A DNA stretch of 10,991 bases from Sphingomonadaceae bacterium (GTDB taxonomy: Bacteria > Pseudomonadota > Alphaproteobacteria > Sphingomonadales > Sphingomonadaceae). Position 1 is the first letter of the stretch. Each line of letters starts with the position of its first letter. The translations under genes were made by a program, and so were the position numbers. The stretch spans positions 1 through 10,991 of the forward strand of contig JACMKH010000466.1 in NCBI GenBank assembly GCA_014380205.1, read 5' to 3'. This document shows, in pieces, positions 5,719 to 10,991 of the stretch. The notes beneath the pieces were generated by a model. The model did not search any database, was not told the origin of the DNA, and saw only the letters and a program-made list of their open reading frames with translations.

Positions 5719-6489
5719 ATGACCTATTGTCTTGGAATGCTGCTCGAAGCAGGCCTCGTGATGATGGCCGACACGCGCACCAACGCGGGCGTCGACAACA
5801 TCTCCTCGTACAAGAAGCTCCACATTCTCGAGTCGAGCGAGGCGATGTGCGTGATCGCGTGCACCGCGGGCAATCTCTCGGTCAGCCAGCTCGCCTTCAA
5901 CTATCTCGCCGAAGGGCTCCCCGAGATCGAGGAGGGCGCCGGGCGGCGACGGATCGCCGGCATGGCCAACATGCACCGCGTCGCGGGCCTCGTCGGCGAG
6001 GCGATCCACTGCGCGCGCGAGGAGATCAAGGAGGCGACCGGCGAGAATCAATATGATTTCACCGCCTCGATGCTTGTAGGCGGGCGCTTCGCGGGGCGGC
6101 CGCTGAGGCTGTTCCACATCTACAGCGTGGGCAATTTCATCTCGTGCCAGCCCGACCGTCCGTTCCTCCAGATCGGCGAGACCAAATACGGCAGGCCGAT
6201 CCTCGATCGCGCGGCGCGCTGGGAGATGGCGCTCGACGATGCGGTCAAGACGGGGCTCTTGTCGTTCGATTCGACGATGCGGTCGAACCTCGGCGTCGGC
6301 CGCCCGATCGATCTCGCGGTGCTGCCCGCCGACGAGGGCCAGCCGATGCTGACGCGCCGGATCGAGGAGGAGGACGCATATTTCGACGAGCTCTCGCGAC
6401 TGTGGGCGAAGGCGCTCGCCGAGGTGCGGAAGGGAATCCCCATGCCGCCGTTCATGGCGGGGGTGGGCGGGGCGCAGGCGGCAGGCTAA
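5719..6489 (+). CDS. Anbu, proteasome-type peptidase
   Basis: A 256-residue member of the Anbu family (ancestral beta subunit, COG3484), a self-assembling Ntn-hydrolase related to proteasome beta subunits and HslV. The protein begins MTYCLG, so removal of Met exposes the nucleophilic Thr. Counting from that Thr, Asp17 lies in [10 protein letters not shown] and Lys31/Lys32 in SSYKKL, matching the proteasome Thr1/Asp17/Lys33 set. SVGNF (131-ish), [18 protein letters not shown] and [21 protein letters not shown] are hallmark Anbu segments. Length is normal. The ATG at 5719 must be right, since the Thr has to be residue 2; the Shine-Dalgarno is weak. It follows a transglutaminase-like gene, its usual partner. 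It overlaps bpt tail to tail by 4 nt. Natural substrates are not known. Confidence 0.93.
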
Positions 6490-7265
6490 CCCGCGTCGGC
6501 GAACACCTTCCGGCCCGCCGCGCTCTCGCGGCCCGGCTCGAAGCGCTCCCAGCCGCGCGGGCCGAGGCGCTCGATCGGGCGATAGCGGATCTTGTACTGC
6601 ATCCGCCGCGCCCCATCGACCCAATAGCCGAGATAGACGTGGGAGAGTCCGGCCTTGGCGGCGCGGGTGATGTGATCGAGGATGATGAAGTTGCCGATGC
6701 CCTTGCGGGCGGTGTGCTGGTAATCGAAGAAGCTGTAGATCATCGACAGCCCGTCGGACTGCTGATCGGTGAGGCACGCGCCGACCAGCCGGCCCGGCAT
6801 GCCGCCCGCGCCGGGCTCGCGATATTCGACGATATAGGAGTTGACCGGGGTCTGCTCGACCATGTCGGCGAAATCCATCTCGTCCATCCCCGCCATGCCG
6901 CCGCCGGGGTGGCGCGACGAGAGATAGCGCTGGAGCAGATCGAATTGCTCCTCGGTGGTCCAGGGCTCGCACGCGGAGACCTTGAGGTCGGCGTGGACCT
7001 TGAGCGCGCGGCGCTGGCTGTCGGTCGGGCGGAACTCCCTGGCGACGACGCGGACCGAGACGCAGGCCGCGCAATCGACGCAGCTCGGGCGATAGGCGAC
7101 CGACTGGCTGCGGCGGAAGCCGATGCGGCCGAGCGCGTCGTTGAGGTCGGCGGCGTGGGGGCCGCGCAGCTCGGTGAAGACCTTGCGCTCGACGCGGCCG
7201 GGCAGGTACGGGCACGGGCTCGGGCTGGTAACGAAAAAGCGTGGAAAGCGGAATTGCGCTGTCAC
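6486..7265 (-). CDS. bpt: Aspartate/glutamate leucyltransferase Bpt
   Basis: Bpt moves leucine from Leu-tRNA to proteins with N-terminal Asp or Glu, making them N-end rule substrates for ClpS/ClpAP. The 259-residue protein has the conserved opening [23 protein letters not shown] (12-33), and the Cys-rich [13 protein letters not shown] (61-73) with Cys62, Cys65 and Cys68. It also has the GNAT-like second half (SMIYSFFDY at 174-182, GNFIILDHI at 191-199, [22 protein letters not shown] at 211-232). Length is usual. The start is GTG at 7265, giving [11 protein letters not shown] as in relatives; AGGGG lies about 12 nt upstream, farther than ideal. Its stop overlaps the anbu stop on the other strand. 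Upstream is a 216-base gap with hairpins. Confidence 0.94.
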
Positions 7266-9875: not shown

Positions 9876-9992
9876 CTAGGCGACCTGAGCGGCGGGAGCG
9901 TTGCCGGTCGTCATCAGCGCGACGGTGCCGCTGAAGGCGCTGAGGGTCATCAGCGAGGCGGCGGCGATCGCGAGCAGGTTCTTGCGGATCAT
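9876..9992 (-). CDS. Small hydrophobic, possibly exported peptide (38 aa)
   Basis: I do not recognise a family. The 38-codon frame starts with ATG at 9992 and ends at TAG 9876. A good Shine-Dalgarno, GGAG (10000-10003), lies 7 nt before the ATG. The peptide begins MIRKNLLAIAAASLMTLSAF, that is, a basic N-terminus (Arg3, Lys4) and then a 20-residue hydrophobic stretch, and it ends GNAPAAQVA. This reads like a signal peptide or a single membrane anchor, with APA-A as a possible signal peptidase site, which would leave almost no mature protein. The codons are GC-rich at third positions like its neighbours. A strong hairpin follows, and the gene is divergent from the TIR-winged-helix gene. An overlapping ATG at 10006 is in another frame and gives an arginine-rich shadow. 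Being so short, it could still be chance. Confidence 0.6.
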   Translation of the reverse strand: MIRKNLLAIAAASLMTLSAFSGTVALMTTGNAPAAQVA

Positions 9993-10173
9993 CGTTCATC
10001 TCCATTTCTCCCCCCTGGCCGGATTGCCCGAGGTGATTTTCAGCTAGACCGCTTTTCGCGCCGCATCCTGAGCCCGCGCTGGAAAGATTCTGGAAAAATA
10101 ATTGTCCCAATCGCGCCCGTGCTTTGGAACGCGCGCGCGCTGGGGTAAGGATGCGCGCCACGGGGAAGCGCCG
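9993..10173. promoter_or_regulatory. Divergent promoter region between the small peptide and TIR genes
   Basis: This is the only clearly AT-rich patch of the window: GGAAAGATTCTGG and GGAAAAATAATTGTCCC at about 10081-10109. On the - strand a weak sigma-70 pair TTCCAA and GACAAT with a 17-nt spacer can be drawn toward the small gene. On the + strand I see no convincing pair. GGAAC at 10126-10130 is followed by a (GC)n run of about twelve bases, not by the CGTT that an EcfG-type stress promoter would need. Confidence 0.35.
10162..10168 (+). promoter_or_regulatory. Ribosome binding site of the TIR-winged-helix gene
   Basis: GGGGAAG lies 5 nt before the ATG at 10174. Other ATGs at 10151 and 10178 are in a different frame, so this site fixes the start of the TIR protein. 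Confidence 0.5.
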
Positions 10174-10991
10174 ATGGATGCCGACAAGCGAGTGACCGTC
10201 TTCGTCAGCCACCATTCGAGCACGGCGGCGATCGCGGGCGAGGTCGAGCGCGCGCTCGCCGATCGTGGCGTCGATTGCTGGATGGCGCCGCGCGACGTCG
10301 AGCCCGGCGAGCCGTTCGATCTCGCGGTGCGCCGCGCGATCGAGCGGTCGCGCGCGCTGCTGCTGCTGTTCTCCGCCGAGGCCGATCGCAGCCGCCACGT
10401 GAAGCGCGAGCTGATCCTCGCCGACGACGCCGGCAAGCCGATCATCCCGCTGCGCCTCGAGCACGCCCGGCCCGACCAGCTCGCCTATCATCTCGCCGAC
10501 ACCCAATGGATCGACTGGATCGAGCGCGGAGAGGTCGCGATGGATCGCGTCGCGCGCAAGGCGAGGTCTTCGGAGCGGGCGCGTTCCAGCGAGGGGGAGC
10601 GCGCCGCGCCCGAAGCGTCGCGCGCGCGCGGCCTCGCCTTCAGCGAGTTCCGAATGGATCTTGCCGACGAACGGCTTCACGGCCCAGACGGCCCGATTAA
10701 GCTCGGCAACAAGGCGTGGCGCGTGCTGCGCCTGCTGATCGAGAACGAGGGCCGGCTGCTCACCAAGGACGCGCTGTTCGAGAGCGTGTGGGACGGGACG
10801 ATCGTCTCCGAATCGTCGCTGACCTCGGTGATCAAGGAGCTGCGCCGCGCGCTCGGCGACATCAGGGGCGAGCCGCGCTTCATCGAGAGCGTGTACGGGC
10901 GCGGCTACCGCTTCATCGCGCCGGTATCGGCCGCGACGGCCGAGCCGATCGAGTCGCGCCCTCCGGCCCGCCCGGCCGAGGCGCGCGGCAA
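10174..10991 (+). CDS. TIR domain - winged-helix DNA-binding fusion protein (C-terminus cut by window edge)
   Basis: The first 272 codons are open and run off the right edge. Residues 7-115 form a TIR_2-type domain: VTVFVSHHSS (7-16), DCWMAPRDVEPGEPFD (34-49), AIERSRALLLLFS (55-67), SRHVKRELILADDAGKPIIPLRLE (73-96) and TQWIDW (110-115). Glu79 in VKRELI sits where TIR NADases have their catalytic glutamate. A charged Ser/Arg/Glu linker (128-152) follows. Residues about 153-250 form an OmpR/CadC-type winged helix: LGNKAWRVLRLLIENEGRLLTKDALFESVW, recognition helix SESSLTSVIKELRRALGD (212-229) and wing FIESVYGRGYRFIAPV (236-251). No receiver domain is present. The tail after 251 is Pro/Ala/Glu-rich; relatives of the winged-helix part often go on to a membrane helix or TPR repeats. 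Probably a one-component regulator with a TIR signalling or enzymatic head; function unproven. Confidence 0.85.
   Translation, partial: MDADKRVTVFVSHHSSTAAIAGEVERALADRGVDCWMAPRDVEPGEPFDLAVRRAIERSRALLLLFSAEADRSRHVKRELILADDAGKPIIPLRLEHARPDQLAYHLADTQWIDWIERGEVAMDRVARKARSSERARSSEGERAAPEASRARGLAFSEFRMDLADERLHGPDGPIKLGNKAWRVLRLLIENEGRLLTKDALFESVWDGTIVSESSLTSVIKELRRALGDIRGEPRFIESVYGRGYRFIAPVSAATAEPIESRPPARPAEARG

Follow-up and report, generated by a model that had tools for sequence, protein, structure and literature searches.

The gene at the end of the DNA analysed here, a window of 10,991 nucleotides from a Sphingomonadaceae bacterium (contig JACMKH010000466.1), raises the question of how a TIR domain came to stand in front of a DNA-binding winged helix, and what it might do there. 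In bacteria, TIR domains have mostly been described as defence effectors that cleave NAD; a TIR domain of the usually membrane-anchored kind at the front of a gene regulator hints, as far as its sequence goes, that a TIR signal might reach gene control by a very short route. An in-place fusion of the two would make bacterial TIR control of transcription directly testable, and with it the question of whether Sphingomonadaceae membrane TIR proteins, which are numerous, signal to DNA. The fusion is known from a single contig and one incomplete gene (Table 1).

Table 1. Position and basis of the features of the fusion gene and its upstream region (window coordinates).
Feature	Position	Strand	Basis
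TIR-winged-helix fusion gene	10174..10989	+	single open frame, 272 codons to contig end; TIR_2 and Trans_reg_C above Pfam cut-offs
TIR domain including last helix, residues ~1-131	10174..10566	+	TIR_2 at residues 9-117; structure model; identity to membrane TIR proteins
Codon of Glu79, the expected catalytic residue	10408..10410	+	residue 79 is E; invariant in 28/28
Charged linker with fusion joint, residues 132-152	10567..10629	+	local similarity to TIR proteins versus P0029
OmpR/CadC-type winged helix, residues ~153-252	10630..10929	+	Trans_reg_C; identity to P0029
Beginning of linker towards missing C-terminal part	10930..10989	+	P0029 local alignment reaches last residue present
Divergent 38-aa peptide, one hydrophobic segment (hydropathy)	9879..9992	-	related peptides encoded divergently ahead of winged-helix/TPR genes (G229, G077, G059)
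Operator-like element ATCCTGAG-N6-CTGGAAA	10065-10085	+	element also precedes winged-helix/TPR genes of other genomes
10-base direct repeat, 11-bp spacing, overlapping the operator-like element	10079-10088 / 10090-10099	+	repeat search

The original prediction, of an intact TIR_2-like domain with a glutamate at position 79, joined by a charged linker to a winged helix that lacks a receiver domain, holds in all these parts. In Pfam profile searches, both domains exceed their curated cut-offs within the one frame: PF13676 (TIR_2) scores 72.6 bits against a cut-off of 28 (E 5.3e-20), and PF00486 (Trans_reg_C) 64.4 bits against 26.2 (E 1e-17); no receiver family was detected in the 272 residues at E values up to 0.1, which distinguishes the protein from two-component response regulators. 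The structure model and fold comparison recovered a TIR fold for the N-terminal half; the winged helix of this model (m0b74949e85d3) was of low confidence and was left unused. Glu79 is placed in helix 74-85 of the model, the helix after the third strand, and all 28 aligned TIR relatives keep a glutamate there, an assignment made by fold position and not residue by residue against a proven NADase. A hydropathy scan found no transmembrane segment in the 272 residues present, which do not include the C-terminus, nor in 32 winged-helix relatives. The linker holds the fusion joint: similarity to TIR proteins (P0122, P0123) extends to residue 151, and similarity to the winged-helix regulator P0029 begins at residue 146 and continues to the contig end. 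Since the joint falls at residues 146-151, and the frame has no ATG, GTG or TTG after Met123, which lies in the last TIR helix, until Met161, already part of the winged-helix region, the regulator appears to have lost only its first few residues.

The winged helix is 69% identical to P0029 over 47% of the query, and its identity peaks at 79% (P0054) among the best 120 of 874 relatives; among the matches listed, the relatives are 520-580 aa long and several carry TPR families. P0029 (550 aa; Pfam domains Trans_reg_C and TPR_2) was modelled with a mean pLDDT of 85.4 as a protein of three parts (winged helix, alpha/beta, helical), and in a fold search this model resembled the DNA-binding domains of ToxR and CadC, the CadC periplasmic domain and TPR proteins. 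Judged by the full length of P0029, the complete window protein is expected near 690 aa. The predicted sensor part outside the window probably existed as a CadC-like/TPR part now lost beyond the contig end, where the closest full-length relatives carry one. The fusion protein shares the winged helix, the start of the following linker and the promoter element with these soluble, HilA/CadC-like winged-helix/TPR regulators, and the type of divergent peptide with three of their loci; in contrast to it, they begin directly with the winged helix, and none of 32 carries a TIR domain. The resemblance to CadC and ToxR lies in the type of winged helix, and in the match of the C-terminal part of P0029 to the CadC periplasmic domain (TM-score 0.62 by target, rmsd about 5 A), whereas the window protein has a TIR domain in front, and neither its 272 residues nor the 32 relatives contain a transmembrane segment. 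Against the HilA/EilA model (NF009037), the truncated window protein reaches 57.4 bits and P0029 likewise only 70.8 bits, compared to an equivalog cut-off of 589. Genes of the P0029 type are rare: at E 1e-60, 12 of 298 family genomes have a match and five other genomes of the same genus have none; in five of the 12, the match begins only at residue 109-115, behind a different N-terminus.

The TIR half leads to another family. Among the matches listed, it is about 59-70% identical to membrane TIR proteins (TIR-TM-LprI and kin, e.g., P0005, P0001 and P0122), with which it has the TIR sequence, the glutamate and the flanking motifs in common; these proteins differ in having a transmembrane segment and a periplasmic-type tail, predicted to lie outside the membrane, instead of a winged helix. 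The tails are varied (LprI, PF00254 or FKBP, and PF04536 or TPM, among the matches listed), and the hydropathy scan placed a transmembrane-type segment after residue 130 in 113 of 118 TIR-first proteins. Two members of this TIR family (P0023 and P0068) have a cyclase-type domain ahead of the TIR domain, one of them together with TPR-S. A literature search found no functional study of Sphingomonadaceae membrane TIR proteins. Two further TIR proteins are encoded in the assembly of the fusion gene (88% complete): C367, with a TIR domain, a hydrophobic segment and DUF3617, and C416, which a contig end truncates. Their TIR domains are only 41-43% identical to that of the window, and a search of the assembly found no TIR-TM-LprI protein of the closest subfamily. 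At both loci (L003 and L002, respectively), the TIR protein adjoins small DUF3617 proteins; the arrangement looks like a repeated cluster of receptor-like TIR proteins. A 660-codon frame in another genome (L087; G238:C2:411000-415500) combines a TIR domain, a hydrophobic stretch and TPR-like repeats, with the TIR domain where such regulators have the winged helix; it resembles the fusion in placing TIR ahead of a TPR-bearing part, and differs in that no winged helix was found there. This layout suggests by analogy that TIR and winged helix may be exchangeable output modules on TPR-type sensors, both of which would stand in a row in the window protein.

No second protein of this composition was found. 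A search of 5.8 billion proteins, with the best 120 of 874 and the best 120 of 238 relatives examined, returned both Pfam domains only in P0121, which is the window's own protein, and P0121 was also the only one of 152 fetched sequences with both signatures. The matches listed for sets of 249, 385 and 398 genomes contained no second fusion; these sets overlap, each includes the fusion gene's own genome, scoring took in up to 10, 6 and 6 candidates from each genome, and the two larger sets considered only matches below E 1e-12 and 1e-14, respectively. None of three relatives in a search of genome contigs spanned both domains. Of 72,556 plasmid records searched, 414 matched, and of 50,697 phage records six; none of these covered 80% of the query. 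In the protein searches, a fusion protein of comparable identity should come first in the ranking; a distant TIR/winged-helix fusion could sit below the listed matches. Among the papers listed in literature searches, with subscription papers mostly out of reach, no title or opening of an abstract dealt with a fusion of TIR to such a winged helix, and the terms helix-turn-helix, DNA-binding and transcription are all absent from the main text of PMC7075850. Among these collections and listed matches, the architecture is neither common nor already characterised.

The DNA left of the TIR domain resembles that of the winged-helix/TPR locus in several other Sphingomonadaceae, with the same order of divergent peptide, element and gene. 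The gene for the 38-aa peptide is present in a single copy in its own assembly (E 6.5e-18; next match E 0.34), and four of 13 other genomes contain matches. In three of these (G229, G077 and G059), the sole match (E 0.001-0.013) sits divergently upstream of the winged-helix/TPR gene, with 205, 233 and 169 bases, respectively, between peptide start and winged-helix start, compared to 181 bases from peptide start to TIR start in the window; the fourth, G278, has four weak matches (E 0.47-1.6). The peptide has no match in five other genomes of the same genus, in G297, G168, G215 and G104, or at three TIR-TM loci. In four of seven winged-helix/TPR loci, the divergent gene differs from the 38-aa peptide: one shows nothing similar, and three (L057, L058, L060) encode in its place a secreted-type protein of 111-114 aa, which is reminiscent of UrcA-type proteins.

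The operator-like element occurs in exact form five times in 16 genomes, once each in the fusion gene's own assembly, G229, G297, G059 and G168, every time upstream of a winged-helix gene; with one mismatch it lies upstream of this gene in G215 and G278, and with two (by eye) in G077. The reversed pattern is absent from all 16 genomes, and seven other one-mismatch sites (two in G297, one each in G142 and G153, three in G104) may be due to chance. As a caveat, the pattern was derived from these promoters, so that finding it there proves little by itself; what is informative is that it is missing elsewhere and that it precedes the TIR domain. The repeat pattern, with up to two mismatches allowed, has three matches in the window where 0.30 would be expected, and the sole exact copy is that at 10079. 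From this resemblance, the TIR domain was most likely inserted in place, and apparently forms the beginning of a winged-helix/TPR gene that has kept its own promoter region; the anatomy and the in-place fusion can be considered well supported and very probable.

The best explanation as a whole, which we put forward tentatively and at somewhat less than even chances, is an autoregulated one-component transcription factor whose assembly would gather TIR domains, with NAD cleavage as output. A soluble CadC/HilA-like winged-helix/TPR regulator would have acquired, in place at its N-terminus, a TIR module of the membrane-anchored Sphingomonadaceae family, and its gene would have retained its divergent promoter region. 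The lost CadC-like/TPR part would act as signal receiver, and the winged helices might sit head to tail on the 11-bp direct repeats near 10065-10099, and in this way control the fusion gene and the divergent small peptide gene; direct repeats of 11-bp spacing suit head-to-tail binding by OmpR/PhoB-type winged helices. The single exact element site in the assembly, located at the fusion gene, suggests local autoregulation of this gene and its divergent neighbour. TIR domains in general act through assembly; clustering, either on DNA or on signal, could gather them so that Glu79 would cleave NAD+, leading to a local signal or growth arrest. Among the points against this explanation, the Novosphingobium lentum locus L036 encodes a winged helix of 69% identity, yet the element was not found there, and the 38-aa peptide is not the divergent gene in the four winged-helix/TPR loci mentioned above.

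The strong rival is a TIR domain that would work as a homotypic handle, through which membrane TIR proteins of the same cell (TIR, transmembrane segment, periplasmic part) would hold or release the transcription factor; a signal from the envelope would then reach the operator with no NAD being cleaved. Since the relatives of the TIR half are mostly membrane proteins, their TIR domains may serve docking and not catalysis, and the same assembly offers potential partners in C367 and C416. The low identity of these two to the window TIR, and the failure to find the closest TIR-TM-LprI subfamily in the assembly, speak against docking, which is on balance less likely than the explanation above. A still less probable variant joins docking to catalysis in a bacterial, two-part counterpart of Toll-type signalling, in which membrane TIR proteins with periplasmic sensors would contact a TIR transcription factor on its own operator, and TIR assembly with NAD cleavage would be the switch.

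Metabolite sensing, in which the TIR domain would bind NAD(H) or a derivative without turnover and set winged-helix activity, fits the N-terminal placement of a nucleotide-handling domain on a one-component regulator; a conserved glutamate exceeds what binding would seem to require, and with nothing else pointing there in particular this reading is quite improbable. The defence role raised in the original prediction found no supporting evidence. Here an infection signal at the lost C-terminal part would trigger the TIR domain towards cell death or arrest, and the winged helix would only tune expression; the TIR is of the catalytic type and has weak, partial PADLOC matches to defence TIRs (at best 37.2 bits, to a SAVED-TIR model), but its score to Thoeris ThsB (PF08937), 20.2 bits, is below the cut-off of 21.2. 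A Pfam scan of nine upstream genes, with FtsY, a patatin-like gene and the small peptide outside the scan and the downstream side lost, recognised neither a ThsA-type partner nor any other defence gene. A defence function is very doubtful.

The first possibility examined was an assembly chimera, in which a TIR-TM gene would have been wrongly joined to one for a winged-helix/TPR protein. The two halves belong to separate families and the contig end is close to the joint (360 bases away, in an assembly of 498 contigs), and the lack of a second fusion among the matches listed agrees with a chimera. As the leading view it was set aside on account of the winged-helix/TPR-type element and neighbour left of the TIR domain, since a chimera would require two precise joins, and it is now highly improbable: the joint is in frame and at a domain border, and base composition is alike on both sides (GC 0.705/0.698; third-position GC 0.899/0.915). 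When the assembly was searched with TIR-TM-LprI and winged-helix/TPR proteins, neither an orphan LprI tail nor a further winged-helix/TPR piece turned up, a weak test because 12% of the genome may be absent and the LprI tail is poorly conserved. Farther upstream in the window, a gene for a proteasome-family protein of the Ntn hydrolase type (5719-6486, + strand) adjoins an arginyl-tRNA-protein transferase gene (6486-7265, - strand).
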